From: Actinopolymorpha alba DSM 45243
Lineage (GTDB): Bacteria; Actinomycetota; Actinomycetes; Propionibacteriales; Actinopolymorphaceae
Assembly (NCBI RefSeq): GCF_000373925.1
Contig: NZ_KB892788.1
Span: forward strand, 1 to 44,068
Length of the DNA: 44,068 nt
Reading direction: 5' to 3'
The translations under genes were made by a program, and so were the position numbers. Below are positions 11,261 through 34,835 of the stretch, in pieces. Below the pieces are notes generated by a model that saw only the letters and a program-made list of their open reading frames with translations, had not been told where the DNA came from and made no database searches. How positions within the stretch are numbered: the stretch's first letter is position 1; the number at the start of each line of letters is the position of its first letter.

Positions 11261-11650
11261 ATGCGTGCTATCTGCCCTATGTGCGGCGGGACCGGACAGC
11301 TCAGTGTCGAACATTGCGCGGCTTCGTTGCGGGACCGACGCGTTGTCAGCGTCCTTATCCCTCGACGATGCGCGACGTGCAGGGGCTGTGGATGGCCGCC
11401 GCACCCGCGATCGGCCAAGCCGACGCGCCCACCAGCGAGCGTCCTGGACACCTCACGGGACGTGAAACAACCCGCCCCGATCCCATGGAGGTGGGGCGGA
11501 TTCATACGGTGGATCGAGAGCAGATTTAGACGGCGGCGCCGGGCGCGACCAGGCCGGACTCGTACGCGAACACCACCAGCTGGGCCCGGTCCCGGGCGGC
11601 AACCTTTGCCATCGCTCGCGAGACGTGGGTCTTGGCCGTCAGCGGGCTGA
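11261..11650 (+). CDS. small zinc-ribbon protein, copy 1 (paralogue of 34431-34835)
   Basis: Not a family I recognise. It begins MRAICPMCGGTG and has a second pair in CATCRGCGW, two CxxC knuckles 33 residues apart resembling half of a DnaJ-type zinc finger. A basic, proline-rich tail follows, with the conserved QPAPIPW and a GGF-x-RW-x-ESR block. About two thirds of the first 86 residues are identical to copy 2. Most nucleotide differences are synonymous, and the only gaps are 3 and 6 bases. That argues strongly for a real, selected protein. Similarity stops at about 11526, exactly at the stop codon of the convergent response-regulator gene. The frame then runs 125 bases antisense to that gene, so the last 40 residues (Arg/Pro-rich) are probably not native. 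The frame is open back to 11189 (MMREAARP), but the upstream part is conserved as DNA in a different frame, so the ATG at 11261 is preferred. No strong ribosome site is seen. Confidence 0.6.
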   Translation: MRAICPMCGGTGQLSVEHCAASLRDRRVVSVLIPRRCATCRGCGWPPHPRSAKPTRPPASVLDTSRDVKQPAPIPWRWGGFIRWIESRFRRRRRARPGRTRTRTPPAGPGPGRQPLPSLARRGSWPSAG

Positions 11651-12203
11651 CGACGAGCCGCGAGGCGATGTCGTCGTTGGACAGTCCGGACGCGACCAGA
11701 CGGACGACCTCGCGTTCCCGCGCGGTCAGAGCAGTCAGCTCTGGTGGCTCCCGGCGCGGGCGGGCATCCGCCGACGAAGCACGGATGCACCGGGCGATCA
11801 CGGTCCTGGTGATACTTGGCGAGAGCAGCGCGTCGCCGCGCGCCACGATGCGTACGGCCTGAAGCAGCTCATCAGGCTCGATGTCCTTCACCAGGAAGCC
11901 GCTGGCACCCGACCGCAGCGCCGCGAAGACGTTCTCCTCCTCCGCGAAGGTGGTGAGGACGACGACCCGCACGGCGTTCAGCCCCGGGTCGGTGGTGATC
12001 CGGCGGGTCGCTGTCACCCCGTCAACCTCCGGCATCTGAATGTCCATCAGGACCACATCAGGCCGGAGTTCGCGAGTCAGGGCGATCGCCTGCCCGCCGT
12101 TGTCGGCTTCGCCGACCACCTCGATGTCGGTCGCACTCTCCAGAAGTGCCCGGAAGCCGGCTCGGACCAAAGCCTGGTCATCGGCCAACAGCAGACGGAT
12201 CAC
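11526..12203 (-). CDS. NarL/LuxR-family response regulator
   Basis: A 225-residue protein. The receiver domain starts VIRLLLADDQ, has phospho-acceptor Asp54 in LMDIQMPEVDG, the Thr of VVVLTTF and the Lys of FLVKDIEPD. The C-terminal LuxR helix-turn-helix reads LTAREREVVRLVASGLSNDDIA. GTG 12203 overlaps the stop of the upstream kinase gene by four bases (ATGTGA). That coupling makes it the cognate partner of the kinase. The 3' end touches the zinc-ribbon gene on the other strand. Its targets cannot be read from sequence. Confidence 0.93.
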   Translation of the reverse strand: MIRLLLADDQALVRAGFRALLESATDIEVVGEADNGGQAIALTRELRPDVVLMDIQMPEVDGVTATRRITTDPGLNAVRVVVLTTFAEEENVFAALRSGASGFLVKDIEPDELLQAVRIVARGDALLSPSITRTVIARCIRASSADARPRREPPELTALTAREREVVRLVASGLSNDDIASRLVVSPLTAKTHVSRAMAKVAARDRAQLVVFAYESGLVAPGAAV

Positions 12204-13435
12204 ATCGCCTCCCGGGGCAGGCGCGCCCACACACTGAAGCCTCGTCCGGACTTCGGTCCGGCTTCGAACTGGCCACCGAGTGCCTCGGCCCGCTCCCGCA
12301 TCCCGGCCAGACCGTGCCCGCCGCTCGGGCGCTTCCCGTCAGTGCGTACACCATCGGTGCCCACGCCCGAACCGCCATCGGCGGTGCCTACGCCGTCGTC
12401 GCTCACCTCGACCGTGACCCATTCCGGCTCCCAGGTCAGGCTCACCTGCGCCCGTGCCGACGGCCCGGCGTGGCGCAACACGTTGGTCAGCGACTCCTGG
12501 AGGATCCGGTACACCGCGTGGTCAGTCGGCTCGGCCAGTCGCGGGTCGTCGAGGTCGCTGTCGAAGGTGATGTCCAGGCCAGCCGCTCTTACCGCGGCCA
12601 GCAGATCTGGCAGCCGGTGAAGGCCGCCGTCGTGGGCTGCCATCGTGGCCGGCTCACCGTCAGCTCGTATGACAGCCAGGGTCGAACGCATCTCGGCCAA
12701 CGCCTCCTTGCCGGTACGCCGGATCGCGGTCAGCGCTTCACGGGCGTGGTCGGGCTCACGGTCGATCAGGTGCAGCGCGGTGCCTGACTGTACGGTGATG
12801 GTGGCGATGGCGTGGGCCACTGTGTCGTGGAGTTCTCGGGCGATGCGCAGGCGTTCCTCAGCGACCCGCTGGCGGGCGAGCAGCTCCTGCTCCTCTTCTG
12901 CCAGGCGCAGACGCTGGCGCACCTCTGCGGCGTACGCTCGTCGACTGCACGCGAGCGCGCCCAGCAGCATCGCCACGGCCGCCAACGCGAACTCCGGCAG
13001 GAAGATGGCGAATGCATCGAGCGGGGGTTCGCCACGACGTACCGTCACGAAGTAGCCGGCCGACAGGAAGGCGACGGGGACCGGCAACGCCCGCCACAGG
13101 AACCCTGCCCGCGCTGCGTCGTACAACGGGATGGCAAGCACCACCGAGGGCGGGAAGCCCGGATAACCCAGCGTGTAGAACACCAACAGGGCCACCGCGA
13201 CCAGGTAGAGCGTGGCCACCGGCAACCGCCGCCTCAGCAGCAACGGCGCGGCCATCGCCACACCGAGTACGTACGCCAACCAGTCACGATCGGCGGAATC
13301 GGCTTCACGCCCGGTCACGATCGCGATCTCGGCGGCGGCGAGCACCACACCTACCACCGCGGTATCGACCAACCATCGCCGAGCCGCGGTGCGCGTCCGA
13401 CTCCCGACCTGATCTCGGTCGGGCACCCGCATCAT
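12200..13435 (-). CDS. sensor histidine kinase, NarL-type (HisKA_3)
   Basis: A 411-residue membrane kinase. The N-terminal half has four to six hydrophobic segments between residues 25 and 165 and no large extracytoplasmic domain, so it probably senses the membrane or an intramembrane ligand. The coiled region 165-200 leads into the dimerisation box ARELHDTVAH with phospho-accepting His203. The ATPase domain has an ESLTNVLRHA N-box and DDGVG. A glycine-rich insertion of about 20 residues separates DDGVG from GHGLAGMRERA. ATG 13435 is chosen; GTG 13441 and ATG 13432 are also possible. It forms an operon with the response regulator. Confidence 0.9.
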   Translation of the reverse strand: MMRVPDRDQVGSRTRTAARRWLVDTAVVGVVLAAAEIAIVTGREADSADRDWLAYVLGVAMAAPLLLRRRLPVATLYLVAVALLVFYTLGYPGFPPSVVLAIPLYDAARAGFLWRALPVPVAFLSAGYFVTVRRGEPPLDAFAIFLPEFALAAVAMLLGALACSRRAYAAEVRQRLRLAEEEQELLARQRVAEERLRIARELHDTVAHAIATITVQSGTALHLIDREPDHAREALTAIRRTGKEALAEMRSTLAVIRADGEPATMAAHDGGLHRLPDLLAAVRAAGLDITFDSDLDDPRLAEPTDHAVYRILQESLTNVLRHAGPSARAQVSLTWEPEWVTVEVSDDGVGTADGGSGVGTDGVRTDGKRPSGGHGLAGMRERAEALGGQFEAGPKSGRGFSVWARLPREAM

Positions 13436-13485
13436 TGCCACCGGCCAACGGTACGCTCCGCGTGGCCCAACGGAGGTACGACGTC

Positions 13486-14358
13486 ATGAATTACCGAACT
13501 CTCCAAGCGGGGCAGACCGCGCAGGTCTGGTTCGGCGGCCCCGGCATGTCTGAGCCAGAGCTGTTGTTCGAGACGAGCCAGATCCTGATCGAGGCGCCCA
13601 ACTGGTCGCTGGACGGAGCGTCGCTGTTCGTCAACGGCAACGGCCGCCTCTGGCGGATCGACCTCGACGCCCCCCACACGGGACTCATCCCGATCGAGTT
13701 GCGCGATCTTCCCGAGATCAACAACGATCATGTGCTCGACCCCGACGGGCGGAACGTCTACTTGTCGGCGATGGACGGCCACATCTACCGAGGATCACTC
13801 ACTGGTGGCGAGGTGGTCCGGGTGACCTCCGAGGAAGGCATCTGGCACTTCCTGCACGGGGTGTCGCCCGACGGGACCCGGCTGGCCTACGTCAGGCTCC
13901 GCGACTTCGGCGAACCGGGGCGCCTCGCGCTGATGGAGCCGCACGGGCCGTCGGTGGTCGTCGACACCGGTGACGGTCACCTGGACGGTCCGGAATGGTC
14001 GCCGGACGGTACCTGGATCTACGTCAACTCCGGGAGCTTCACCCAGGCCCCGGGTCATGCCCAGCTCGCCCGCGTTCCAGACGGTGGCGGAGCCCTCGAG
14101 CGGCTCGTCACCAGCGAGACCGTCGACTGGTTCCCGCACCTGTCGCCGGACGGACAGTTCGCCTCCTACATCGTCTTTCCCGCCGGAACGCTGGGACATC
14201 CCCCGGACCTCGACGTCGAGGTGCGCGTCGTCGCGACCACCGACTGGTCGACTGCTGTCCAGTCCTACCCCGTGTTCGGCGGTCAAGGCACGATCAACGT
14301 CAACAGCTGGTCCCCGGACAGCGCGAGGTTCGCCTTCGTCGCGTACCCGCTGACATGA
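13486..14358 (+). CDS. TolB-like/WD40-type beta-propeller protein
   Basis: A 290-residue protein with ribosome site CGGAGG ahead of ATG 13486. The repeated blade signature is SPDG followed by a hydrophobic strand: SPDGTRLAYVR, SPDGTWIYVNS, SPDGQFASYIV and SPDSARFAFVA. The N-terminus has NWSLDGASLFVNG and DPDGRNVYLSA. Together these suggest five to six blades (PD40/TolB_C type). There is no signal peptide, so it is probably cytoplasmic. Its stop overlaps the ATG of an aldo/keto reductase (ACATGA), which suggests a functional link, perhaps in sugar metabolism; that is inference. Confidence 0.8.
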   Translation: MNYRTLQAGQTAQVWFGGPGMSEPELLFETSQILIEAPNWSLDGASLFVNGNGRLWRIDLDAPHTGLIPIELRDLPEINNDHVLDPDGRNVYLSAMDGHIYRGSLTGGEVVRVTSEEGIWHFLHGVSPDGTRLAYVRLRDFGEPGRLALMEPHGPSVVVDTGDGHLDGPEWSPDGTWIYVNSGSFTQAPGHAQLARVPDGGGALERLVTSETVDWFPHLSPDGQFASYIVFPAGTLGHPPDLDVEVRVVATTDWSTAVQSYPVFGGQGTINVNSWSPDSARFAFVAYPLT

Positions 14359-15320
14359 CCGATCACGACCTCAACCGTCAGGACTGGCTCCGGCCACTCG
14401 GCTCGACCGGGCTCACCGTCTCCGCGGTGGCCATCGGAGGCGGACCGATCGGCAGCATGCCGCAGATGTTTGGCTACGACGTTCCCGCCCAGCAGGCGAT
14501 CGATCTCGTAGCGGACATCCTCCGCGGCCCGATCCGCGTTATCGACACCTCCAACGGCTACTCAGACGGAGAGAGCGAGCGACGAATCGGAGCGGGAATC
14601 AGGCGAGTAGGAGGGCTCACCGGCGGGCACTGGATCGCCACCAAGGTCGACGGGCGAGACGGCAACTACTCCGGCGCACGGATTCGTCGATCCGTCGAGG
14701 AGAGCATGGAGCGCCTCGGACTCACGCACCTCCCGCTCGTCTACCTGCACGATCCCGAGTACGCGCTCGACCATGGACTCGACAGCCCGGGCGGCGCCGT
14801 CGATGCGTTGGTGTCCCTACGCGACCAAGGGGTCATCGGACACATCGGCGTCGCCGGCGGCGACATCGCCGTCATGAACCGCTTCCTTGACCTCGAGGTC
14901 TTCGAGGTGTTGCTGACCCACAACCGCTATTCCCTGGTCGACCGAAGCGCCGCCACGCTCATCGCGCGCGCTGCGGCCGCGGGCTTGGGCGTCGTGAACG
15001 CGGCGTACCTGGGTGGCGGCCTGCTCGCGAATCCACGCGGACCAAAGAGCTATGGCTACCGCCCCGCCAAACCGGCAACCATCGAAGCGGCGCTGGCCCT
15101 GGAGTGCTTGTGCAAGGAGTGGGGAACGGACCTGGCGACCGCCGCGTTGCAGTTCTCCCTTCGAGACCCGCGCATCCACATGTCGACCGTCGGGATCAGC
15201 AAACCCGAGCGACTCGCCGCTTTGTGGAGATCCATCCAGGTGGAACTGCCGAGCGAATTCTGGGCCGCCGCCGAAGACCTGCTACCTGATCCGGAAAACT
15301 GGCTGGAACCGCCCGCTTGA
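14355..15320 (+). CDS. aldo/keto reductase
   Basis: A 321-residue (alpha/beta)8-barrel oxidoreductase. The catalytic tetrad is visible: Asp64 in VIDTSNGY, Tyr69, Lys97 in IATKVDG and His132 in YLHDPEY. NADPH-binding signatures near the C-terminus (STVGISKPERL) are also present. The layout resembles D-threo-aldose/L-fucose dehydrogenase-like AKRs. It is translationally coupled to the beta-propeller gene upstream, and its end is only about ten bases from the convergent carboxylase gene. Substrate is probably a sugar or sugar derivative (inference). Confidence 0.88.
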   Translation: MTDHDLNRQDWLRPLGSTGLTVSAVAIGGGPIGSMPQMFGYDVPAQQAIDLVADILRGPIRVIDTSNGYSDGESERRIGAGIRRVGGLTGGHWIATKVDGRDGNYSGARIRRSVEESMERLGLTHLPLVYLHDPEYALDHGLDSPGGAVDALVSLRDQGVIGHIGVAGGDIAVMNRFLDLEVFEVLLTHNRYSLVDRSAATLIARAAAAGLGVVNAAYLGGGLLANPRGPKSYGYRPAKPATIEAALALECLCKEWGTDLATAALQFSLRDPRIHMSTVGISKPERLAALWRSIQVELPSEFWAAAEDLLPDPENWLEPPA

Positions 15321-15331
15321 CCGGCAGGGAT

Positions 15332-18300
15332 TCAGCCGAGTGCCGCGAGGCCACGCTCGATCGCCGCGATCAGCCGGGGTCGCAGCTCGTTCGCGCTGAT
15401 CACCGCGTCGACCGAGCCAACCTCGACGGCCCGCTGGATGCTGTGCACCCGGTCGAACCCGGCCGCGACCTCGCCGAGCTTCTCGGCCCGGACGGCGGTC
15501 CGCACCTCCGCCAGCTCCGTCGCCATCGCCGCGCGTTCCGCTCCGGCTGCCTTGGCCACCCGCGCGGCCAGGGTCGACACGCGGGGGTCGGCCGACGTGC
15601 GGGCGTCGACCTCGCCGGCGAACACGACCGCCGCCGCGGGCGCGCCACCGATCACAGAGGCGTACGAGCCCTCCACCGCCAGGACGGTCAGGCTCGGATT
15701 CAGTGCCTTGGAGAACACCACGAACGCCCCACCGTGGTAGCGCGACACCACACAGAACACGATCGGTCCGACGAAGTTGACGATCGCCCGGCCGATCTCC
15801 GCGCCGTACTCCAGCTGGAGGTTCCGCATCGAGTCCGGTGACCCGTCAAAGCCGGACAGGTTCGCCAACACGACTAGAGGCCGGTTCCCACTGGCCGCGT
15901 TGATCGCTCGCGCCACCTTCTTCGACGAGCGCGGGAACAGTGTCCCCGACGTGTAGGTGTCGGGCCCATCGGTGGGTGGGAAGCCCCGTCGGGGTACGGA
16001 CTTGGATTCGATCCCGAGCAGGCAGACCGGGTACCCACCGAGTCTCGCGTCCTGGACCACGGCGGTGTCAGCGTCAGCCATCCCAGCCCAGCGCTCCAGC
16101 ACCATGGAGTCCTGGTCGGTGACCGCCTGCATCACCGTACGGATGTCGAAGGCCTTCTTGCGGTCCGGGTTGGTCACCGCGGAGAAGATGTCGCCGACCG
16201 TACGGAAGTCGCTGCCCGGCGCGTCGTGCGGGTACGTCGTGACGTCCCGGTCCACCGGATCGGTCGTCTCGGCCCGCCGCGGCCCCGACTCGCCCGGAAC
16301 GACGTATGTGTATTCGTAGTGGGCCATCAGCACGTCGCGGGCACCCTGCAGGTCCGGCGCCCAGTACTGCGCCTGTCCGTTCGGACCCATCACCCTGTCG
16401 TAGCCGCCGATGCCGAAGTTGTCCTCCGCGGAGACACCGCCGGAGAAGTCCAACGACTGTTTGCCGGTGAGCACCATCGCGCTGTCCGGCGTCATCACCA
16501 AAATGCCCTTGGTGTGCATCAACATCGTCGCCTCGGCGTTCCAGTACGGCTGCGCGCCGACGTTGATACCCGCGACCACGACGTTGATCTCGCCGCCGTT
16601 CTGGGTGAACTCGACGATCCGCTTGAGCGCCTTCGCGATCCAGTCCATGTTCTCGGTGCCGGAGTCCATCGAGATCCGGGCGCCGGCGGACAGCGCGTAC
16701 CACTCGACCGGAACCCGCATCCGCTCGGCCAGGTCAAGAGCCGCGATCACCCGCGCGCACTCGGCCTCCGCCACGGCGCCGAGCGCCTTCGTCGGGTCGC
16801 CGCTGAGCACCACGCGGGTGACGCCCTCGGGATAGCGCAGCGTTGGCGTACTGACCACCCCGGCGATCAGCCCCGCCTTGTTGAGCCCACGTGGCCGGTC
16901 GGCTGGCACCAGCGTTCCGGAGTCGTCCAGGTCGTATTCGACGACCGAGCCGCCCGGGCCGGCGACCATGTCGGTCAGCTCGTACGGGTAGACCGTGTTG
17001 CGGCGACGCGAGCGCAGGACCTTCTGGGCGTAGTCGTCGAGCGGTTTGAGTCCCTCGGTCGTCGGCGCCTCGACAGAGGTGACGACACCGGATCCCCGCT
17101 GGTAGGAGAAGCGCGCGACCACCGGCGCCACAGTGCCGTCCGGCGTCCTGACCCGGCCCTGCGCCAACACCTCCTCGATGCCCGCACCGACGGTGAGCGG
17201 TGCGATGTTGCGCTGCAGAGCGGTCAGCTCATCGACCTGGACGTCGACGACGGGCCAGATGTGCACCCAGACGTGGTTCATGTCCAGGCGCGCGCCGGCC
17301 GTACCGCGGGTACTGCGGGCCCGGCGAATGCCCTCCAGGCAGTTCGCGATCGCCCGCTCGACGTGCGGCAGGGATGTCACCTGCCCGTCGTCGTCGCGTA
17401 CGACGGCGAACTGGCGGACCTGGGCGAGTGCCACCAGTCGCTGGTCCGCGTCGTTGTCCCGCGCCACGCAGTGGTAGAGCAGCACGTCCTCGGGGGCCTC
17501 CAGCCGGGTGATCCGAAAGTCGCGAAGCCGCCACAGGTTCAGCCGCCGGCCCACCATCGGGTGGACGCCGCGGACGTTGTCGTCCTCGGCGACCGATCCG
17601 CCGGCCGGCCGGTAGGTGAAGTACTCCACCGCCTGGTCGCCGCCCCGTGCGATGGCCAGGGAGATCCGGCGTACGCGCCGAGCCCACGGTAGGGCCGCGA
17701 CCAGAGCGCGGCACTCGTCCGACGCCTCCTGCTGTCCTTCCGGAGTGTCCGGTCCGAACAGGTACAGGTCGACCACTGCCCCGTGCCCGGCGGGTCTGGT
17801 ATCGATCTGCGCGGTAAGAGCACGGACCAGACCGCTGTCGGAGTCGGCGAGCTCGGCGACCGTACCGACCGTACTGACCAGGTGGAGCGGACGGTCGTCC
17901 AAGGAGTAGTCGGCCGTCGCGAACGGTCTCCCGTCGACGGTGGACTGGCCCAGGTTGTGCAGCTCGTACTCGCGGTAGTGCCGGCGGATCAGCACCTCGA
18001 GCATCGGCTCCCGCTCTGAGCTCCTGGTCGCGTTCGGCTCCTCGCTCGTCCCTCGCTCGCTCGCCGAGCCGCTCTGACTCCAGCGGTGCTCCAGCCGCTG
18101 CGCCAGGAACCGAGCGATCTGTTCCGGGATGGCCGCGAGTGCCTCGATCCGCTGCCGGCGGTCCGGCGCATCCGGGTTCGCCGCGAGCGACGCGACCTCG
18201 TTGCCGACGCCGGCCACCACCTCGGCCCGCGCCTCGTCCACCAACGGCTGGTCGAACCAGCGGAAACGTACGCTGCGGGCCAGGTCGCCGACGACCGGGA

Positions 18301-20920
18301 AGCGCAGCTGGGTGGCGAGCACCAGCCGCTCGAGTACGTCTCGAACCCGACCGTCCAGCGGCGGGGCCGGTCTCGGCTCGGTGATCCAGCACTGCAGCAT
18401 CGCGGTGACCAGCAGCACGTCAGGCGTCGATCGCTGCTGCGCGAGGAAGATCCGGAACACCGCCTCTTCCAACTCGGCACTGCGCTCCAGGTCGGTCACG
18501 CCGTAGTGGCCGAGCACGCGGGCGAGCCGGACGCGGAACTCCTCCGGCAGGCCGCCGCGGTCCGGGTCGAGGCTCTGCAGGTAGGTGTGGAAGTGCTCGC
18601 GCGGACTGTGGACGCGGTTCTCGGTGCTGACCTCCTCGCCAGCCGGACGGTTGCGGCTGAGCTCGGCGAAGTCGGCGAACACCTGCAGCAGCTCGATCTC
18701 CGCCGTCGCAGGGGCCTCTCCGGCAGCCGCCGACTCGGCCCGGGCAGCCAGGTAGCCGGCCAGCATCTCGCCCTCGTCGCGGGGGTCGATGTCGAAGCCG
18801 AGGAGCATGCTGCGCAGGTCGTCCAGACCGCGCTCGGCCCGCTCCGATGCGGACTTCTCCACGGTCTCGCTCGGCAGGTCCAGGTCAACTTCAGTGGCCG
18901 CCATGGCCAAGGCGGTGGTGCTCGCGTCACTCGCGGCACTCCCGTCGGCGACCGGCTCCAGCCGGACCAGGGGCGCGCTGGTCTCGACCTGGCTCCCGGT
19001 GGAGACCAGAAGCTCCCGCACGGTGGCCCGGAACGGCGCGTACAGCACCGTCTCCATCTTCATGCTCTCCAGCACCAGCACCGGTGCACCAGCCTCGACC
19101 TCGGCGCCCGGCCCTACCGGGGTCGCGACGACCAGGGCTGGTGCCGGCGAGCGCAGCACCCCGCCCTCATCTCTGCTGACCCGATGGGTGATGCCGTCCA
19201 CCTCGACCAGATGCACCGGACCGTGCGTGGCGGTGACCAGCCGGAAGCTCCGGCCGCCGACGACCAGCCGACCGGAGTACGTGCCCAACCGCTCCAGCTC
19301 GCCGTAGACCACCTGCTCGTCGACGCCGCTGCCAACGCCGACGCGGAACCGGTTCGGACCAATCTGCGCCACGGTCACGCGGTACGCGACCCCACGCAGT
19401 TTGAGGTCGATCGCCCGGCCCACCTCGTGCTGCACCTGGGGCCGTCCGCCGTGCGCGGTCGCCAGCAGCCGAAGGCGCTCAACCTGCTCGGCCTCCTCGT
19501 ACCCCTCGATCGCCGCCGCGACCAACCCGATACCGGAGTGCCGGTGGGAGACCAGCCGGCCCTCGAGGCGTACCCGGTCGATCCAGCCGGTGTCGGCGCT
19601 GCCGTCGATCACCTCGGGTTGGTCGAGCAGCGCGAGGATGAAGCTCTTGTTGGTGACGCCGCCCTCGATGATCACGGTGGTCGCGGCAACCGCCCGGCGC
19701 AGCCGCGCCAGCGCCTCCTCCCGAGTTCGGCCGTACGCGATGATCTTCGCGATCATCGAGTCGAACTCGGCCGGGATGGTGTCGCCCACGCTGACGCCGG
19801 TGTCCACCCGCACACCGGGACCCGCCGGCAGGTCGAGCAGTGCGATCCGGCCCGGCGACGGGGCGAAGTCGCGGTCGGGGTCCTCGGCACACAGCCGGGC
19901 CTCGACCGCGTGCCCACTCTCGGTCGGCCGCGCGCCTTCGAGCCGGCCACCGGCGGCGATGTTCAGCTGAGCCTTCACCAGGTCGACGTCGGTGGTCACC
20001 TCGGTGATCGGGTGTTCAACCTGGAGCCGGGTGTTGACCTCGAGAAAGGCGAAGAACGTGTCGCTCGGACGGTACAGGAACTCGACTGTCCCGGCGCCGC
20101 GGTAGCCGACCGCGAGCGCGAGCCGCTCGGCCGCGCTCTTGAGCTGGTCGACCTGCGCCACGGACAGCACGGGAGAGGCGGACTCCTCGATCACCTTCTG
20201 GTTCCTGCGCTGCACGGAGCAGTCCCGCACACCGAGCGCCCAGGCGGTGCCCTGGCCGTCGGCGATCACCTGTACCTCGACGTGGCGGGCTCCGGTCACC
20301 AGCTGCTCGAGGTACACCACGCCGCTGCCGAACGCACGCTCCGCCTCGTCGCGGGTGCGGTCGTACGCCTGCTTGAGGTCCTCGGGCGACATGATCACCC
20401 GGATGCCCCGACCGCCGCCGCCGGCGGCTGCCTTGAGCATCAGCGGGTAGCCGACCTTCTCGGCCTCCGCGAGTGCCGCGTCCAGCGTGTCGACCGGGCC
20501 GCCGCTCCACCGCGCGACCGGGACACCGACCTCCTCAGCAACGAGCTTGGAGGCGATCTTGTCGCCGAGCCTGCGCATCGCCTCAGGCGTCGGCCCGATG
20601 AACGTCACGCCGAGCCGCTCGCACAACTCGGCGAACGCGGGATCCTCGGCGACGAAGCCCCAACCGACCCACGCGGCGTCCGCCTCCGTCTCGCGAAGGG
20701 CGCGCTCGAGCACCGCGAGATCGACGTACGGTCGCGCCGAGGCCGGCCCCAGCGGGTAGGCGAGGTCGGCCTCCCGTACGAACGTCGCCGTCCGCTCGAC
20801 GTCGGTGTAGAACGCCACCGTCTCGATCGGCTCGCCGCCCTCCGCGTTGAGCTCACGAACGGCGTTGATCAGCCGCATCGCGGCCTCGCCACGGTTCACC
20901 ACCGCGATCCGCCTGAACAC
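15332..20920 (-). CDS. single-chain acyl-CoA carboxylase (BC-BCCP-CT fusion, eukaryote-like architecture)
   Basis: A protein of about 1862 residues carrying every step of a biotin-dependent acyl-CoA carboxylation. Residues 1-110 are the biotin carboxylase N-domain (VNRGEAAMRL). About 115-325 is the ATP-grasp domain, with a KAAAGGGGRGIRV glycine loop and FLEVNTRLQVEHPITE. About 330-455 is the carboxylase C-domain. The biotinyl domain centres on ESMKMET with the biotinylated Lys621 (codon 19058-19060). A helical central region of several hundred residues follows, then a two-part carboxyltransferase at about 1300-1862 (NVVVAGINVGA, GGYDRVMGPNG, LANLSGFDGS, SRYHGGAFVVFS). Most bacteria split these over separate subunits. 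This order and the long central region resemble eukaryotic ACC. GTG 20920 is chosen because a GGGGGCG ribosome site precedes it and relatives start MFKRIAIVNRGE-like; GTG 20947 is in frame. Substrate (acetyl-, propionyl- or longer acyl-CoA) is open. Confidence 0.88.
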   Translation of the reverse strand: MFRRIAVVNRGEAAMRLINAVRELNAEGGEPIETVAFYTDVERTATFVREADLAYPLGPASARPYVDLAVLERALRETEADAAWVGWGFVAEDPAFAELCERLGVTFIGPTPEAMRRLGDKIASKLVAEEVGVPVARWSGGPVDTLDAALAEAEKVGYPLMLKAAAGGGGRGIRVIMSPEDLKQAYDRTRDEAERAFGSGVVYLEQLVTGARHVEVQVIADGQGTAWALGVRDCSVQRRNQKVIEESASPVLSVAQVDQLKSAAERLALAVGYRGAGTVEFLYRPSDTFFAFLEVNTRLQVEHPITEVTTDVDLVKAQLNIAAGGRLEGARPTESGHAVEARLCAEDPDRDFAPSPGRIALLDLPAGPGVRVDTGVSVGDTIPAEFDSMIAKIIAYGRTREEALARLRRAVAATTVIIEGGVTNKSFILALLDQPEVIDGSADTGWIDRVRLEGRLVSHRHSGIGLVAAAIEGYEEAEQVERLRLLATAHGGRPQVQHEVGRAIDLKLRGVAYRVTVAQIGPNRFRVGVGSGVDEQVVYGELERLGTYSGRLVVGGRSFRLVTATHGPVHLVEVDGITHRVSRDEGGVLRSPAPALVVATPVGPGAEVEAGAPVLVLESMKMETVLYAPFRATVRELLVSTGSQVETSAPLVRLEPVADGSAASDASTTALAMAATEVDLDLPSETVEKSASERAERGLDDLRSMLLGFDIDPRDEGEMLAGYLAARAESAAAGEAPATAEIELLQVFADFAELSRNRPAGEEVSTENRVHSPREHFHTYLQSLDPDRGGLPEEFRVRLARVLGHYGVTDLERSAELEEAVFRIFLAQQRSTPDVLLVTAMLQCWITEPRPAPPLDGRVRDVLERLVLATQLRFPVVGDLARSVRFRWFDQPLVDEARAEVVAGVGNEVASLAANPDAPDRRQRIEALAAIPEQIARFLAQRLEHRWSQSGSASERGTSEEPNATRSSEREPMLEVLIRRHYREYELHNLGQSTVDGRPFATADYSLDDRPLHLVSTVGTVAELADSDSGLVRALTAQIDTRPAGHGAVVDLYLFGPDTPEGQQEASDECRALVAALPWARRVRRISLAIARGGDQAVEYFTYRPAGGSVAEDDNVRGVHPMVGRRLNLWRLRDFRITRLEAPEDVLLYHCVARDNDADQRLVALAQVRQFAVVRDDDGQVTSLPHVERAIANCLEGIRRARSTRGTAGARLDMNHVWVHIWPVVDVQVDELTALQRNIAPLTVGAGIEEVLAQGRVRTPDGTVAPVVARFSYQRGSGVVTSVEAPTTEGLKPLDDYAQKVLRSRRRNTVYPYELTDMVAGPGGSVVEYDLDDSGTLVPADRPRGLNKAGLIAGVVSTPTLRYPEGVTRVVLSGDPTKALGAVAEAECARVIAALDLAERMRVPVEWYALSAGARISMDSGTENMDWIAKALKRIVEFTQNGGEINVVVAGINVGAQPYWNAEATMLMHTKGILVMTPDSAMVLTGKQSLDFSGGVSAEDNFGIGGYDRVMGPNGQAQYWAPDLQGARDVLMAHYEYTYVVPGESGPRRAETTDPVDRDVTTYPHDAPGSDFRTVGDIFSAVTNPDRKKAFDIRTVMQAVTDQDSMVLERWAGMADADTAVVQDARLGGYPVCLLGIESKSVPRRGFPPTDGPDTYTSGTLFPRSSKKVARAINAASGNRPLVVLANLSGFDGSPDSMRNLQLEYGAEIGRAIVNFVGPIVFCVVSRYHGGAFVVFSKALNPSLTVLAVEGSYASVIGGAPAAAVVFAGEVDARTSADPRVSTLAARVAKAAGAERAAMATELAEVRTAVRAEKLGEVAAGFDRVHSIQRAVEVGSVDAVISANELRPRLIAAIERGLAALG
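18036..18070. repeat. low-complexity CTCGCTCGTCC-type segment inside the carboxylase gene
   Basis: A run of CTCGCTCG units bounded by GGCTC and GAGCC encodes SASERGTSEEP near residue 955, in the central region of the carboxylase. The peptide is hydrophilic and unlike its surroundings. I have an impression of similar short repeats in actinomycete genomes, but that is memory, not checked. It keeps the reading frame. Confidence 0.4.
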
Positions 20921-20934
20921 CGACCCGCCCCCAG

Positions 20935-20966
20935 ACTTCGACTGCACTTCACTTCGACTGCACTTC
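20935..20966. repeat. 16-base direct repeat at the 5' end of the carboxylase gene
   Basis: ACTTCGACTGCACTTC occurs twice in perfect tandem. It overlaps the more upstream of two candidate GTG starts of the carboxylase gene, which is another reason to prefer the downstream GTG at 20920. It could be a regulatory repeat or replication slippage. Confidence 0.6.
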
Positions 20967-28137: not shown

Positions 28138-28154
28138 TTAGGCGGGAGATTCCG

Positions 28155-29555: not shown

Positions 29556-29614
29556 CCGTCGGTTCGGGCAGTCCGGTGGGCCTGCGGAGTCTGTCCCGGC
29601 AGCCCGCTTAGGAG

Positions 29615-29649
29615 CAGGACCCGCGGTGGCAGATCCACCGCGGGTCCTG
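29615..29649. terminator. bidirectional hairpin terminator
   Basis: CAGGACCCGCGGTGG and CCACCGCGGGTCCTG are perfect 15-base arms around a 5-base loop. It sits between the exporter (+) and the convergent TIGR03086-family gene (-). Confidence 0.88.
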
Positions 29650-29684
29650 AGCGTGCCGGGCAACGCCGGCCCAACGGAAGCCCG

Positions 29685-30260
29685 TCAGCGCGGTGTCCAG
29701 AACGGGTCGCGGCCGATGAAGCCGAGCATCCGGGTTTGAGCATCAGCGTCGTCGGGAGTAGGGACGGCTGGACCGTACTGGCCTGAGGCGCGCAGCAGGT
29801 CGTCGATCGGCTCCATACCGGCCAGCAGCGCCGCGCAGAACTCGGGGTCGAGCTGGTCGTCCTGCCCGGTGCCGCGGGCCAGGTCCCAGGTGTGCATGAA
29901 CACGTCGGAGGTGTAGAACCGGTCGATCGCCTGGTCCAGGGGTACTTCACCGGTGTGCGGGTTGACCAACAACCGGTGCGGGGTCTCCGGGTCATCCAGC
30001 AGCGTCTGCACTGCGGCGCACTGTGTCTCCCAGGCCGCGACCGGGTCGTCGTCCACGCTGGGTCCGGTGGGCAGCTCGACGCTGGTGCCGGCGGCAAGGA
30101 ACGCTGGGAACCATTCGACGAGGTGGCGTACCACGTCGCGGGCGGTCCAGCCGGCGACCGGGGCGGGGGCGTCCCAGTGCTTGGCACCGCGGACGCGATC
30201 GGTGAACCCAGCGGCGATCTGGCGGTGCCGCTCGGCGGGGTGCAGGTCAGAAAGTGCCAT
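29685..30260 (-). CDS. TIGR03086/MDMPI-family protein
   Basis: A 191-residue DinB-like four-helix protein. VAGWTARDVVRHLVEWFP and DVFMHTWDLARGTG contain the family histidines that hold a metal. The C-terminal Asp-rich segment ends ...GRDPFWTPR, common in TIGR03086. It is the last gene of a three-gene operon with an SRPBCC protein and an ArsR regulator and overlaps the SRPBCC gene by 14 bases. Likely thiol-dependent chemistry, with unknown substrate. Confidence 0.85.
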   Translation of the reverse strand: MALSDLHPAERHRQIAAGFTDRVRGAKHWDAPAPVAGWTARDVVRHLVEWFPAFLAAGTSVELPTGPSVDDDPVAAWETQCAAVQTLLDDPETPHRLLVNPHTGEVPLDQAIDRFYTSDVFMHTWDLARGTGQDDQLDPEFCAALLAGMEPIDDLLRASGQYGPAVPTPDDADAQTRMLGFIGRDPFWTPR

Positions 30261-30717
30261 CGGCCAGCATCCTTTCAAGCTTGGCATAGCCGTCTTTCAC
30301 GCCGGTCTCCATGCCGCTCTCCAGCCAGGCGTCGCGGGCCTCGAAGCTGTCCACCAGCGACTGGGCGCGCAGCCCGCTCCGGCCGTTGCCGAGGTCGTCG
30401 AACCACAGTGTCTCCAGGGCCACCCCATCGGGTTCGCCCTCGTACGTGAACGTCTGCACGATCCGGTCCGGGCGCACGTCGTGGAAGCAGCCGCGGAACG
30501 CGTACTCCGCTCCGTCGCCGGCGATGGACACGTACCGGTAGCTGCCGCCGGTACGCGCGTCCCAGTGGTCGATGCGTGTGCGCAGGGTGTCCGGGCCGAC
30601 CCATCGCCTGAACAGCTCGGCGTCGGTGTGTGCCCGGAACAGCTGCTCAGGTGTGGCCTGGAACTCGCGCGCGATGCGGATGATGGGGACCTTGTGGTCC
30701 GCCTCGATCGTGGTCAT
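30247..30717 (-). CDS. SRPBCC/AHSA1-domain protein
   Basis: A 156-residue protein with the AHSA1 pattern: IRIAREFQATPEQLFRAHTD, LFRRWVGPD, GGSYRYVSIAG and GYAKLERMLAD. The START-like cavity binds a hydrophobic ligand. The gene starts 3 bases after the ArsR gene stops. ArsR plus AHSA1 plus TIGR03086 is a recurrent actinobacterial operon of unproved function. Confidence 0.88.
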   Translation of the reverse strand: MTTIEADHKVPIIRIAREFQATPEQLFRAHTDAELFRRWVGPDTLRTRIDHWDARTGGSYRYVSIAGDGAEYAFRGCFHDVRPDRIVQTFTYEGEPDGVALETLWFDDLGNGRSGLRAQSLVDSFEARDAWLESGMETGVKDGYAKLERMLADGTF

Positions 30718-30720
30718 GCC

Positions 30721-31068
30721 TTAGTGCTCCTTGTGTTCGTCGGCCTCGTTCATCCCGGCCAACACGCGGTCGAGGCGCTGGTAGCGCTGCTCGGCCTGCC
30801 GACGGTACCGCTCAATCCATTCGTCCATCAGGTCAAACGCTCCAGTCTCCAGGTGCACCGCGCGCGGCTGTGGACCGCGCAACCGGCTCACCAGGCCCGC
30901 CTGCTCCAGTACCCGCAGATGCTTGTACACGGCCTGCACGCTGATCTGGTACGGCTCGGCGAGTTGGTTCACCGTGGCGTCGGCGACCGCGAGCCGGGCC
31001 ACCATGTCACGGCGGGTCGGGTCTGACAGGGCGGTGAAGACCTTGGACAGGATGTCGGCCGGCACCAT
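30721..31068 (-). CDS. ArsR-family regulator
   Basis: A 115-residue winged-helix protein. VFTALSDPTRRDMVARLA and ISVQAVYKHLRVLEQAGLV are the canonical ArsR elements. No cysteine is visible in the alpha-3 or alpha-5 metal positions, so it is not a standard metal sensor. It is the first gene of the operon with an SRPBCC and a TIGR03086-family gene. A 12-base palindrome lies just ahead of its start. Confidence 0.92.
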   Translation of the reverse strand: MVPADILSKVFTALSDPTRRDMVARLAVADATVNQLAEPYQISVQAVYKHLRVLEQAGLVSRLRGPQPRAVHLETGAFDLMDEWIERYRRQAEQRYQRLDRVLAGMNEADEHKEH

Positions 31069-31080
31069 CGTCCTCGTTTC

Positions 31081-31092
31081 AACCGATTGGTT
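31081..31092. promoter_or_regulatory. operator candidate of the ArsR operon
   Basis: AACCGATTGGTT (arms AACC/GGTT around GATT) lies 12 bases upstream of the ArsR start codon. The size and placement suit autoregulation by the ArsR dimer. Between it and the next gene (31093-31234) I see nothing supportable. Confidence 0.55.
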
Positions 31093-31234
31093 TAAAGGCC
31101 AAGGTAGTCCGTTGACGCACCACGGTCAAGGGAGCTCGCGCTCGATAACCTCGCCGCACTACACAAGCAAGTCGCCGTGGCTCCTGGGCCGCCACGCCAC
31201 TCCGTCAGTGTCGTCGCCGCCGTGCTGGCGTGCG

Positions 31235-31579
31235 TCACCGACAGACATGAGCGTCGGCCGCTCGCCGCAGGTCTGCAGCGATGTCGTCCCAGTCTGGACC
31301 GTGTAGGTAGAGGTTGTCCGCCGCCTCGCGCATGATCGCTGGGTCGTCAGGTCGCTGCAGGAGAATCAGCCGGTAAGCGAGGTTGCGGACCCAGACCGGC
31401 AGAAGGCCGTCAACGACGTGTGGGCATAGTTCATGCAGCATGGCGAGGATCGAGTCCGGGTCGGCGAAGGTCAGTTCCTCAACGAAGTGGCGTTCCTGGT
31501 GGTCGAGGTTGCACTCTGGCGTGGGTCGGTACTCGTCGCCGTAGAGGCAGCGGGCGTGCTCCGTCAGGGTGCTATGCAT
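31235..31579 (-). CDS. hypothetical protein, acidic, no family recognised
   Basis: A 114-residue reading from ATG 31579. It is acidic and helix-rich: MHSTLTEHARCLYGDEYRPT, DPDSILAMLHELCPHVVDG, PAIMREAADNLYLHGPDWDD. The composition (few Arg runs, regular hydrophobic spacing) looks like a real cytoplasmic protein, not a shadow. No longer reading competes on the other strand. No partner gene or motif points to a function. Confidence 0.55.
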   Translation of the reverse strand: MHSTLTEHARCLYGDEYRPTPECNLDHQERHFVEELTFADPDSILAMLHELCPHVVDGLLPVWVRNLAYRLILLQRPDDPAIMREAADNLYLHGPDWDDIAADLRRAADAHVCR

Positions 31580-31740
31580 GGTCGGGAGCCTACGGCTGCC
31601 GTGATCTGCGGGACAGAACCCTAGGCCGAGAGAGCGGCTGATGTGTGGCCGTGATCAGGCGGGGATGCTGCGCGAAACAGCGAGCTGCGCCGGGCCATCG
31701 AACATTTCCCTCGCCGGTTACCTCTGGCGTCTCTTTAGAT

Positions 31741-33030
31741 CTACTGCTTACCGGTGGCAGATCGAGCATGGCAGCGATCGGCGTCAGGCATCTTCTGAGG
31801 AGTCCGGGGATGAGGAACAGTGGTACGAACCACGGCCCGGCCATCTGGAAGTTCGGATGGACATAATGGCGTGGCTTCGCGGTCACCACATTCGTTCGCG
31901 GTTGTCATTGACGGCCTGCGGATCCGGAGGGTCGAGAAGACGGCCATCGTGAGCCAGAGCGCGGGTTCGAGTTCCCAGTGTGCCGACAACCACATGGGAG
32001 CCCAGCAGGCGAGCAGCGAACCCAGGATGAGGGTGCGACCGGAAGCACCGCGGGTGCCGGTGATGAGGGTGGTAGCGACGACGGCGGCGAAGATCGCCAA
32101 ACCGATAATGCCGAGCCCAGTGCCGACCTCGAGGACTATGTTGTGGGCGCCGAGTCGTAGCGGTGGGAGGGTGGTGAATCCACCAGCGCCGATTCCCAGG
32201 AGCCAGTGATCGATGAACGTTTGTCTGGCAAGCGGCCACAGAATCAGCCGGTAAGAAAGGTCCCCGGTCGAACGTACGGACGCAGCGTCAACAGCGCGCA
32301 GCCAACTGGTCGCCAATCCAGTTGAGATCACGAGTGCCGTCAGACAGATTCCAATGCACAAAATGGAGATCCCGCGACGAAGAACGAACCGATGTATGGG
32401 CAGCCAAGCGGCGACGAGAACGACCCCGACAAGCGCTCCGCGACAGCCAGTTTGCAGGATCCCAAAAACAATTGCCACGGCGGCAGCGGCCAATACCAAT
32501 CGAGCCCATCGAGCCGAGGAGTGGGTGGTCCAGAGCAGGATTATGACGACGAGACCGGTGACCAGCGCGTAGGCCAGGTTGTTGACATTTATCCCGTCGA
32601 TGCCATAACGGGCGGTCGAGAACCCGACGACCAAGGGCATTGTTGGGTTCTGGTAGATCAGAAGAACGATGGCGACAAGGCAACCGCTGACGTAACCCCA
32701 GGCGACCACGGATATCCGCCGCTGGTTGGTGATGATGGTCCGGGTGGCCAGAAAAATTATGAGGACTTCGAGTAGGCAGCGGACGGTGTACCAGGTCCAT
32801 TGTGGCTGGATAGCCCAGACGATCGACGTGGCAGCGAAGGCCACATAGAGCATTGCAAATGTCTCTGGAGCCTCTATGCGCAGATGCCTGACGTGCAACA
32901 GCAGGATCACAGCGCAGATAACTGACCCGTGTACGACCGCGATCGCGGGGTTGAAAACCGAAGTCGCCGCCACACCTCCAAGCAGGAGGGGCGAGGCGGT
33001 AGTTATCGCGCGCTGCGGGCTCATCGGCAT
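31741..33030 (-). CDS. O-antigen ligase/Wzy-like polytopic membrane protein
   Basis: About 429 residues with ten or more hydrophobic helices. The signature segment HWLLGIGAGGF, then HNIVLEVGTGLGIIGLAI, is the Wzy_C/WaaL-type periplasmic loop with its conserved Gly-rich GxGxGxF and the following HN. Such proteins ligate or polymerise surface polysaccharide at the outer face of the membrane. ATG 33030 is chosen for its GGAGG site 5 bases upstream; ATG 33057 (MSDIARED) and a longer frame are also open. The last 50 residues are polar and cytoplasmic. It stands alone with no glycosyltransferase nearby. Confidence 0.8.
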   Translation of the reverse strand: MPMSPQRAITTASPLLLGGVAATSVFNPAIAVVHGSVICAVILLLHVRHLRIEAPETFAMLYVAFAATSIVWAIQPQWTWYTVRCLLEVLIIFLATRTIITNQRRISVVAWGYVSGCLVAIVLLIYQNPTMPLVVGFSTARYGIDGINVNNLAYALVTGLVVIILLWTTHSSARWARLVLAAAAVAIVFGILQTGCRGALVGVVLVAAWLPIHRFVLRRGISILCIGICLTALVISTGLATSWLRAVDAASVRSTGDLSYRLILWPLARQTFIDHWLLGIGAGGFTTLPPLRLGAHNIVLEVGTGLGIIGLAIFAAVVATTLITGTRGASGRTLILGSLLACWAPMWLSAHWELEPALWLTMAVFSTLRIRRPSMTTANECGDREATPLCPSELPDGRAVVRTTVPHPRTPQKMPDADRCHARSATGKQ

Positions 33031-33156
33031 CAGGTCCTCCCGCGCGATGTCGCTCATGTGAGGATCCGACCTAGACGAATTCCCGGTGGCCTTCTCGGCG
33101 AGCGGCAGAACAGACACGTCCCCAACAGTAAACGCCAACAAACACAAGCCGGGCGA

Positions 33157-33230
33157 TCAGGTATTGGCGCGGACGATAGTCCAGTCCAGATTGCTGGCGG
33201 CGAGCCGGAGAGTGCCTGATCCGTCCGGTG
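33157..33230 (-). pseudogene. short NAD(P)-binding-protein fragment
   Basis: The minus strand reads LRLAASNLDWTIVRANT and stops at 33157. AAxxLDWTIVRP is a signature of NmrA/atypical short-chain dehydrogenases. Only about 22 residues are recognisable, so this is a remnant. Confidence 0.45.
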
Positions 33231-33281
33231 CGTGACCGTTGCCGCCCTCGTGGCGGGGGCGGCGTCTGCCTACGCTGACCG

Positions 33282-33530
33282 GTGAGTGAACGTACGACGG
33301 GTGTCACCGGGCGGGTCGTGGTGCTGGTGCTGCCTGAGGTGAATCTGCTGGACCTCGGCGGATCGGTGCAGGTCTTCGACGCGGGGACCTGGGTGGCGGC
33401 TAACGGCTGGAGTACGCCGCCGAGACCGCCGAGGTGCGCACCGCGCAGGAGCTGGCGCTGGCTGGGCTCGCCGGACTGGCGGCGACGGAGGCGGGCCCCG
33501 GCGACCTGGTGCTCATACCGGGCCCGCGGG
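33282..33530 (+). pseudogene. GlxA-type (DJ-1/PfpI plus AraC) regulator, N-terminal remnant
   Basis: GTG 33282 starts VVVLVLPEVNLLDLGGSVQVFDA, the first strand and elbow of the GATase1-like domain of GlxA/FtrA regulators. After VAANGW the frame is lost; one frame over it resumes as YAAETAEVRTAQELALAGLA and then GDLVLIPGPRG. The AraC DNA-binding half is absent. The remnant ends where unrelated sequence starts at about 33530. Confidence 0.65.
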
Positions 33531-33544
33531 GCTGCGGGGGATGG

Positions 33545-33690
33545 TTGGCCAGCCGCGCGGCAGTGTCCACGGGTCGGATCACATTGGCCCGGCGCACCTG
33601 CTCCCTGATCACACGCCGGCCTAGGTGGAGGACGGTGCGCTGCCCGAACCCGATGTCGTGGTCGTGCACGGGGACCGACCCGACCGGGGG
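33545..33690 (+). pseudogene. Uma2-like endonuclease fragment
   Basis: One frame reads SDHIGPAHLLPDHTPA, a stop, then VEDGALPEPDVVVVHGDRP. The EPDVVVV-xGD block is the catalytic-core strand of the Uma2 (DUF820) PD-(D/E)XK family. The call rests on a single motif and is tentative. It is embedded among other fragments. Confidence 0.35.
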
Positions 33691-33701
33691 CCAGGAAGCG
33701 G

Positions 33702-34190
33702 CACTGCGGGACTGGATGGCGGCTGTCCTACCCGCGCTGGACGCTGGACGGCCCGACCGCGATCCCCGCCAACCGTCTCGCCGCCGCCGACCTGGCGTAC
33801 GCCCTGAACGCAGCCTTCCCCTGGCTGCGGCCCACGGTCGGCATCGGCCTGCTCGAGGGCGTGGGCGAACTCGACGCCGCCGCCGCGTTCGAAGGCTATG
33901 GCGGGGTGTCCTTCGCGGCGCGGACGGCAGTGCCTTGCAGCCCAGGGCACGGTGACCACCCGGCATGGGGTTGTCCGGTCGCCGAACCTGCGCGTGCCAC
34001 CGTCCAACTCCCCGACCGCGGACGGCGCCTCGGTGAGTTCGGCTTCGACCCCGTACTGCGCGACCTCGCCGCGCACACCGACCGGACTTGCCCGGACCCT
34101 GATCCGGCGGGTGGTACGGCGCCGTGCCGGTTGGCACGCACGCGACAGCATTCCCGAATGGCCCCTACCACGGAAATCAATGAAGGATGA
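33702..34190 (+). other. open reading stretch, not recognised, start not visible
   Basis: A frame free of stops runs to 34190: YPRWTLDGPTAIPANR, then LAYALNAAFPWLRPTVGIGL, ELDAAAAFEGYGGVSFAA, and RRLGEFGFDPVLRDLAAHTD. It has an amino-acid mix normal for this genome. No start codon with a ribosome site is evident, and the region upstream is made of other gene fragments. It could be the 3' part of another truncated gene. I cannot place the family. Confidence 0.35.
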
Positions 34191-34370
34191 GCCGTTCATA
34201 TATATTCCACTCGTGGAACTATCCTGATTTCGATCAGGCTGCCGGGCTCATTTCTCCGCGAACTTTTCGCTGATCGAATAAGAAGCGAATTATGTCTGAC
34301 GTTATGAAGCCTCCTTGGGTAGACGGCCCTTCGAAAAGAATTAGGGGTGACGTAAATAGCGCATACCATC
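34191..34370. promoter_or_regulatory. AT-richer leader ahead of zinc-ribbon copy 2, with palindrome TTCCACTCGTGGAA
   Basis: This 180-base stretch is clearly richer in A and T than the rest of the window (ATATATATTCC, AGAATTAGGGG, GCGAATTATG). It contains the palindrome TTCCAC-TC-GTGGAA at 34205-34218. No gene is visible in it. It probably holds the promoter of the zinc-ribbon gene, or it is acquired DNA. Confidence 0.4.
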
Positions 34371-34430
34371 ATGAGTGGCTTGCCAACCTTCTGGCGGTTT
34401 ACCGGCCAGGTTGACGGGAATTCCGGCCTC

Positions 34431-34835
34431 ATGCGTGCTATCTGTCCCGTGTGCGGCAAGTCCGGCCGCCTCGGCGTTGAACTTTGCGCGGCTTCGCTGC
34501 GCGACGGACGCGTTATCAACATCCTCATCCCTCGACGCTGTGCGACGTGCAGAGGTTTTTGGCCGCCTCACCCGCGATCGGTCAATCCGCCGCGCCAACC
34601 GGCGAACGTCCTGGAGGCCTCGCCAGTCGTGATCCAACCTGCCCCGATCCCATGGAGTCGGGACCCGGGCGGATTCACGCGGTGGGTTGAGAGCAGGTTG
34701 CATGACGGGAGTGGAGCTCTTACTCCCCTGGGGCCTGGCCGGGTACGCGCCAAACACCGCCGCGCCAGGAAATGGGGACTGTGGGCGGCTGGATTCCGGA
34801 GGCTACTCGCGCCGTCTGCCCGTTCGATCACCTAG
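34431..34835 (+). CDS. small zinc-ribbon protein, copy 2 (paralogue of 11261-11650)
   Basis: 134 residues from ATG 34431. It starts MRAICPVCGKSG and has CATCRGFW as second knuckle, then WPPHPRS, QPAPIPW and GGFTRWVESRL. Compared with copy 1, one codon is lost after CRG and two are gained before GGF, both in frame. The C-terminal 48 residues (KHRRARKWGLW and a Leu/Ala/Arg-rich end) have no counterpart in copy 1 and may show the native end of the family. The frame extends to ATG 34371 upstream, but the DNA conserved there reads in another frame in copy 1. A CGGTTTACCG element 26 bases before the ATG is shared by both copies. A 13-base hairpin follows 63 bases after the stop. Function unknown; nucleic-acid or protein binding through one zinc is the natural guess. 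Confidence 0.65.
   Translation: MRAICPVCGKSGRLGVELCAASLRDGRVINILIPRRCATCRGFWPPHPRSVNPPRQPANVLEASPVVIQPAPIPWSRDPGGFTRWVESRLHDGSGALTPLGPGRVRAKHRRARKWGLWAAGFRRLLAPSARSIT

Follow-up and report, generated by a model that had tools for sequence, protein, structure and literature searches.

The window analyzed here, a stretch of 44,068 nucleotides from Actinopolymorpha alba DSM 45243 (contig NZ_KB892788.1, positions 1 to 44,068), contains two paralogous open reading frames on the forward strand, which begin at positions 11261 (copy 1) and 34431 (copy 2). In a MAFFT alignment, 62 of the 88 codons common to both are identical (70%, invariant columns), the only gaps are one of a single codon and one of two codons, and both CxxC knuckles are present in each copy. 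These results agree with a first-pass annotation made from the sequence, which had reported the readings at 11261 and 34431, approximately two-thirds identity over 86 positions, the same two gaps and both knuckles. The features of the two loci are as follows.

11223..11526, forward strand: duplicated DNA block, copy 1, with about 38 bp before the ATG
11261..11527, forward strand: copy 1, 89 codons (MRAICPMC...WIESRF), core and shared tail
11261..11392, forward strand: copy 1 core, a predicted double-CxxC zinc ribbon of 44 codons, based on homology to short family members and a pair omega of 0.32
11393..11527, forward strand: copy 1 tail, Pro/Arg-rich, with copy 2 as its only convincing match
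11528..11650, forward strand: remainder of the copy 1 open frame as far as its first stop, running antisense to the response regulator; GC3 0.55
11526..12230, reverse strand: LuxR-type response regulator, neighbour of copy 1; the copy 1 block ends in contact with its stop codon
34395..34699, forward strand: duplicated DNA block, copy 2
34431..34700, forward strand: copy 2, 90 codons (MRAICPVC...WVESRL), core and shared tail
34431..34559, forward strand: copy 2 core, a predicted double-CxxC zinc ribbon of 43 codons, based on family homology, omega and model pLDDT
34560..34700, forward strand: copy 2 tail, disordered in the model (pLDDT <50 from residue 46)
34701..34835, forward strand: C-terminal extension particular to copy 2 up to its stop, absent from copy 1

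The homologous DNA blocks (11223-11526 and 34395-34699) are about 304 bp long and 78% identical with an E-value of 1e-65, and the likeness of the paralogues is therefore not due to chance. Homology starts approximately 36-38 bp 5' of both ATG codons, and a 2-nt indel within this upstream stretch indicates that it is probably non-coding and that the ATGs are the likely starts. At the other end, homology stops in both copies after ESR[FL] without a common stop codon. The continuation of copy 1 beyond this point (11528..11650) is probably not its native C-terminus. The GC3 of the copies (0.64-0.77) is lower than that of the response regulator (0.83), and several window genes are equally low. In a Pfam scan, the genes adjacent to the two copies differ, except for a RibD_C-like gene near each, and these unlike immediate neighbours leave no common partner evident.

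The 49 nucleotide differences between the copies are distributed 12/12/25 over the three codon positions, with a third-position excess that gives binomial p-values of 0.008 for the whole pair, 0.09 for the core and 0.03 for the tail. The NG86 method counts 20.5 synonymous and 28.5 non-synonymous differences. Maximum-likelihood dN/dS is 0.45 for the whole pair (p=0.018 against 1), 0.32 for the core (first 44 columns; p=0.016) and 0.63 for the tail alone (p=0.38), the last being indistinguishable from neutral. The earlier claim that the pattern is one of selection thus holds, as purifying selection, for the pair overall and for the core. Its wider version, in which the whole 86-residue architecture is a selected family, is not supported, since the tail is convincingly matched between these two copies only and its omega does not differ significantly from 1.

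Because there is no common stop within the homology and the copy 1 frame runs antisense through the response regulator, copy 1, at least, may be decaying. According to this somewhat unlikely reading, a tail-bearing member was copied in the segment of ~304 bp, at least one of the copies lost its native 3' end, and the pair, or one of the two, survives as a relic, so that the selection signal is past or comes from a single branch. The tail omega, the GC3 of 0.55 in the copy 1 extension and the occurrence of the tail-bearing form in one genome only fit such a history, but neither frame has a stop, both indels are in frame, and the third-position excess (25 of the 49 differences) and the overall omega argue against it. 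A very improbable and already disfavoured reading is that the frame preserved in the duplicated block is an antisense one, of which the zinc-ribbon reading is a shadow. One antisense frame does show the same third-position pattern (12/12/23, NG86 0.49), as expected because the third positions of that register fall on sense third positions, and a long open antisense frame (11227-11790) lies over copy 1. However, the 12/12/23 register has a stop inside the block, and homology to proteins of other species, with conserved cysteines, is found in the sense frame.

This homology is provided by proteins of 52-55 residues with a CPxC...CxTC...W layout, which profile A1 identifies in 7 of 8 genomes of Actinopolymorphaceae. 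Profile A1 was built from the two window copies, one row from genome G004 and one from genome G002; it and profile A2 contain the window copies, whose scores there are by construction. Rows outside profile A1 match it with E-values of 3.1e-25 (G003), 3.8e-23 (G005), 1.2e-22 (G001) and 5.6e-15 (G007), and a third copy in the A. alba genome (C1) matches at 3.2e-16. Profile A4 omits the window copies; it recovers copy 1 at 8.3e-10 and does not list copy 2 at E<=1e-6. Residues C5, P6, C8, A20, R27, C37, T39, C40 and W44 are invariant in all nine sequences, and the window copies share both the knuckle pattern of the family (two CxxC, CxTC, then Trp) and profile homology over the core of about 50 residues.

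In all seven genomes carrying the family, which belong to related soil bacteria, the short gene adjoins the NAD-synthesis gene nadE, an assignment made by Pfam in three genomes, by gene order in two and by adjoining nadE and EamA peptides in two. The third copy of the A. alba genome is one of these nadE-linked genes, whereas other genes adjoin the window copies, which are paralogues and not the orthologue of the nadE-linked gene and form sisters in the tree (support 100/99). Orthologues of the short gene have NG86 dN/dS values of 0.11-0.22 in five of six pairs and 0.42 in the sixth. The short protein has the same layout and knuckle spacing as the window copies, and most members of both forms have Arg or Lys before a hydrophobic pair preceding the first knuckle. 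Unlike the window copies, the short protein has no tail of ~45 residues and ends 3-7 residues after Trp-Leu, and it mostly carries RTGTGLV or similar where they have RVINILI or RVVSVLI. The suggestion of a family in this lineage is therefore sound for the core, which has homologues across Actinopolymorphaceae, and not for the tail, which the short homologues lack. Among the titles and abstract openings listed for anti-TRAP and DnaJ zinc motifs, small actinobacterial zinc fingers and the genus, none deals with the family, which is not proof of absence.

Beyond the two window copies, no convincing tail match for the tail-bearing form was found in samples of the genus (6 genomes), order (293) and phylum (396), or in named species genomes, viral contigs, plasmids and phages; limited candidates per genome were scored in the large samples, and near records of the source genome may be absent from the named collections, so misses are possible. 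A search with the tail and the copy 2 extension against the 8 genomes of Actinopolymorphaceae likewise gives no convincing match besides the window copies, and tail-only matches there have E-values of 0.11 and worse. Residues 1-59 of the G004 sequence reach into the tail (E 6.4e-6), with the part past the core lying behind a stop, residues 19-70 of the G005 sequence match into the tail at E 0.009, and weak matches in the source genome that reach into it have E-values of 0.02-0.99. A lack of homologues combined with a dN/dS near 1, the outcome set beforehand as counting against the selected-family proposal, roughly describes the tail alone and does not describe the core.

A quite improbable alternative is that the copies are cargo or an accessory protein of a mobile element, of the phage-type small zinc protein kind, that has moved around the chromosome. 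The core query matches small double-CxxC proteins in three IMG/VR contigs and one phage record (E 6e-3), and hits of family members at E<=0.1 extend to 15 PHROG families, the best at 0.0012 and none from copy 2. A 19-nt inverted pair with 79% complementarity brackets copy 2 (34392-34410 / 34734-34752) and was considered as element ends; with such a pair in 1 of 40 Markov-resampled controls and none at copy 1, it is too weak to name an element. Against this alternative, Pfam finds no transposase, integrase or phage family among the 20 window ORFs that were scanned (five of which are without any match), searches with the window query turn up nothing in phages or plasmids and no confirmed match in viral contigs, and the core family keeps a conserved position next to nadE. 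The window contains no tRNA as an integration site.

Neither window copy reaches a Pfam or NCBIfam cut-off, and the earlier statement that no known family was recognised is confirmed at these curated thresholds. Weak Pfam matches (E<=1) to DnaJ_CXXCXGXG and to Anti-TRAP each occur in eight of the nine members, but the lowest E-value among the nine (0.00051) belongs to the unrelated GRXCR1-2_C model, and such matches are therefore not specific. Anti-TRAP (RtpA, NF058604 / PF15777), described in PMC2896485 as a zinc-dependent oligomer that binds TRAP, resembles the copies in its very small size and two CXXC motifs. Its NCBIfam model has a cut-off of 65 bits and gives sub-threshold matches of 12.8-18.5 bits in five of six scanned proteins, with copy 1 at 12.8 bits and no match for copy 2. 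The anti-TRAP knuckles lie nearer to each other, since ~43 residues of the present proteins correspond to ~25 positions of the profile. The DnaJ cysteine-rich domain (PF00684) shares a CPxCxGxG-type first knuckle with several members and matches weakly in eight of nine (best E 0.0012); copy 1 scores 11.9 bits against the gathering score of 32.7, and copy 2 does not appear among the matches at E<=1. DnaJ has four CXXCXGXG motifs inside a J-domain protein, whereas the window copies have only two CxxC motifs and no J domain, and the first motif of copy 2 is CPVCGKSG. In the region of its second knuckle, copy 2 gives short local matches to DZR_2 and Zn_ribbon_TFIIB (PF18912, PF13453), both sub-threshold, at 17.9 bits (cut-off 27) and 15.5 bits (cut-off 22).

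The structural model of copy 2 is of moderate confidence, for the core only: block means of pLDDT are 70-84 over residues 1-40, and pLDDT is below 50 from residue 46, with strands at 2-4, 13-22 and 28-34 and a disordered tail. A Foldseek search against the PDB returns no matches at E<=0.001, the closest DnaJ structure match by profile has an E-value of 0.037, and the short form, when modelled separately, gives a poor result (mean pLDDT 55).

The explanation we favour, with reasonable though limited confidence, is that the copies arose by lineage-specific duplication from a small Cys4 zinc-ribbon protein, kept beside nadE in Actinopolymorphaceae, and carry an added tail. They probably act as a putative protein- or RNA-binding regulator. 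Judging from the sequence and the model, the four cysteines (C5, C8, C37 and C40) most likely coordinate a single Zn2+ ion, which would hold a beta-hairpin in place, and the core may serve as a small module that oligomerises or binds a partner, either protein or RNA, as in anti-TRAP or the DnaJ cysteine-rich domain. The disordered Pro/Arg-rich tail would have been gained before the duplication of the copies and could add affinity for nucleic acid or a partner. A stronger version, which we consider unlikely, makes the tail-bearing pair a recently neofunctionalised two-part regulator, in which an anti-TRAP-like zinc module has, in one lineage, been fused with a tail that is new, basic and disordered and that binds either a partner protein or nucleic acid. 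If true, a new segment would have arisen beside a conserved zinc ribbon, with its short relative still at nadE in the same genome.

The tail-extended duplicates represent a modest but real find and not a new kind of system. They reveal an uncurated small-protein family kept beside nadE in one bacterial family, with one genome in which the module has been duplicated and extended, and they offer a small example of how a minimal zinc ribbon can acquire a tail. The find would carry more weight if the nadE-linked form were to regulate NAD or glutamine metabolism.

The two zinc-ribbon readings that the first-pass annotation placed at 11261 (copy 1) and 34431 (copy 2) are present as described, with 70% protein identity, and their alignment contains exactly the one-codon and two-codon gaps claimed for it. 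At the DNA level, 11223-11526 matches 34395-34699 over about 304 bp (78% identity, E 1e-65), where the local alignment ends. Homology opens 36-38 bp 5' of both ATGs, and because a 2-nt indel in this upstream stretch suggests that it is not translated in the frame of the copies, the ATGs at 11261 and 34431 are the most likely start codons. At the other end homology breaks off after ESR[FL], ahead of any stop codon, and both frames stay open past the block. The relevant features are as follows.

9927-10424, minus strand: RibD_C-like reductase gene, two genes from copy 1 (Pfam 20.8 bits, below the 24.1 cut-off)
11261-11650, plus strand: copy 1 and its open frame past the block, antisense to a response-regulator gene
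11526-12230, opposite strand to copy 1: LuxR-type response regulator
15332-20947, minus strand: single open frame of 1871 codons (GC3 0.90), whose start (RRIAVVNRGEAAMRL) resembles a biotin-carboxylase N-terminus
34431-34835, plus strand: copy 2 and its open frame past the block
35104-35655, minus strand: RibD_C reductase gene near copy 2, above the Pfam cut-off
G000:C1:185752-185907: third, short relative in the window's genome

Each copy consists of a core with two CxxC knuckles and a Pro/Arg-rich tail. The copies differ at 49 nucleotides in 88 codons (12, 12 and 25 by codon position), with NG86 dN/dS of 0.42 overall, 0.28 in the core and 0.64 in the tail. Fitted pairwise by codon ML, omega is 0.45 for all 88 codons (p=0.018 against 1), 0.32 for the 43 core codons (p=0.016) and 0.63 for the 45 tail codons (p=0.38, no difference from 1), and the excess of third-position differences has p=0.008, 0.09 and 0.03, respectively. 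On these figures the shared frame very probably encodes protein, and purifying selection acts on the core, judged by codon comparison. The dN/dS comparison bears out the proposal of a protein kept by selection for the core but not for the tail, in which an indel that keeps the frame and a marginal bias in codon position hint weakly at constraint against an omega not different from 1. The leading alternative is that one or both copies are decaying.

The search for homologues recovered core relatives outside this genome. A four-sequence profile found members in 7 of the 8 Actinopolymorphaceae genomes, the window's own included (E <= 0.001), with G006 the sole miss. A nine-row profile matched 9 of 293 genomes in an order-level sample (E <= 1e-5), comprising the same seven and a further two that are more distant (G059 and G065), and a profile built without the window copies (A4) matched 2 of 394 in a class-level sample (E <= 1e-6), one being the window's own. 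Of 34 pattern stretches, 2 were confirmed, giving Actinopolymorpha rutila and A. pittospori as named matches. Short members have 52-55 residues, taking GTG as the start codon in G007, whose first residue was entered as M in both alignments and should be L. C5, P6, C8, A20, R27, C37, T39, C40 and W44 are invariant in the nine aligned rows. Compared pairwise, the orthologues of G001, G003, G004 and G005 have NG86 dN/dS of 0.114, 0.12, 0.144, 0.15, 0.223 and 0.42; pairing each of these four with the nadE-linked A. pittospori copy gives 0.53-0.56. A G059 locus (L062, G059:C1:106000-119000) also carries, on its minus strand near 7000, two small readings with double CxxC motifs that are not in the same frame (...NTLCPDCGGSGEIRV... 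and ...QQICPSCKGKAWKTT...), close to an HTH gene and a GntR regulator.

The short member sits after the NAD synthase gene (nadE), or after an EamA transporter gene that itself follows it. By Pfam, NAD synthase and EamA are both confirmed in G004 and G007, and NAD synthase and glutamine synthetase in the window's genome, where the EamA gene does not lie between nadE and the zinc-ribbon gene. Marker peptides of nadE and EamA adjoin the zinc-ribbon gene in G001 and G005, and ORF starts give the same order for A. pittospori (G002) and for A. rutila, whose zinc-ribbon peptide is that of G003. A second A. pittospori member has a Ser/Thr kinase on one side and a DksA/TraR-type protein on the other. 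Counting copies and neighbours, as had been advised, yielded a third copy and nadE synteny for the short members, but neither window copy adjoins nadE. Copy 1 is flanked by a sugar-isomerase-like gene and, on the other side, a two-component pair, and copy 2 lies upstream of the convergent RibD_C gene; a RibD_C-like gene near each copy is taken as chance.

The claim that the copies match no known family holds for Pfam and NCBIfam, both falling below every cut-off there. By E-value alone, the best Pfam match of other members is GRXCR1-2_C (0.00051, four members), the DnaJ cysteine-rich domain and anti-TRAP recur most often among the weak matches (each in 8 of 9 members), and the family profile best matches the DnaJ domain 1exk among PDB sequences (E 0.037). 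PMC2896485 describes anti-TRAP as a 53-residue protein with DnaJ-like, zinc-binding CXXCXGXG motifs whose oligomerisation requires zinc. The zinc-ribbon family resembles both in motif and size; membership tests placed the window copies in neither. The AlphaFold2 model of copy 2 (mean pLDDT 56.6) has a core of moderate confidence, with block means of 70-84 for residues 1-40 and strands at 2-4, 13-22 and 28-34, and a disordered tail. The short form modelled alone is poor (mean pLDDT 55.1), and Foldseek found no significant match in the PDB.

In the tree, the copies are sisters (support 100/99) on a branch that is 1.14 changes per column long, with 6 of 9 inner branches unsettled for their deeper placement. 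Because they are sisters, the tail was most likely acquired before the duplication. It has no convincing match in the genus, order, phylum or bacterial-family samples, named species, plasmids or phages, and appears new in sequence, but unproven.

A 19-nt inverted pair (34392-34410 and 34734-34752, 79% complementary) flanks the block at copy 2; a bracketing pair turned up in 1 of 40 resampled controls, and none of that kind was found at copy 1. Two short dyads 5' of copy 2 (34205-34238, TTCCACTCGTGGAA and CCTGATTTCGATCAGG), possibly an operator or terminator, lie in an AT-rich stretch (47-53% GC vs 66% for the window). A REP-like palindromic element of about 50 bp (36545-36600, GGTTGTCATAGGTTTCTCGG...CCGAGAAACCTATGACGGC) is dispersed in this genome: 64 of the 68 own-genome matches fall on it, at no fewer than 38 places besides its own, many of them counted on both strands. 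These are lower bounds, the scoring having covered 40 of 290 candidates. It is absent among the matches listed for the other five genomes of the genus. Among its copies, the one at G000:C1:185660-185711 sits some 40 bp past where the nadE-linked zinc-ribbon gene ends.

The suggested new family of this lineage takes shape as a family of small zinc-ribbon proteins with members chiefly in this bacterial family. Among the genomes searched, the tail matches convincingly only between the two window copies, which are a real pair of lineage-specific paralogues. As a working hypothesis, their predicted Cys4 zinc module would bind protein or RNA, accompanied by a disordered basic tail.
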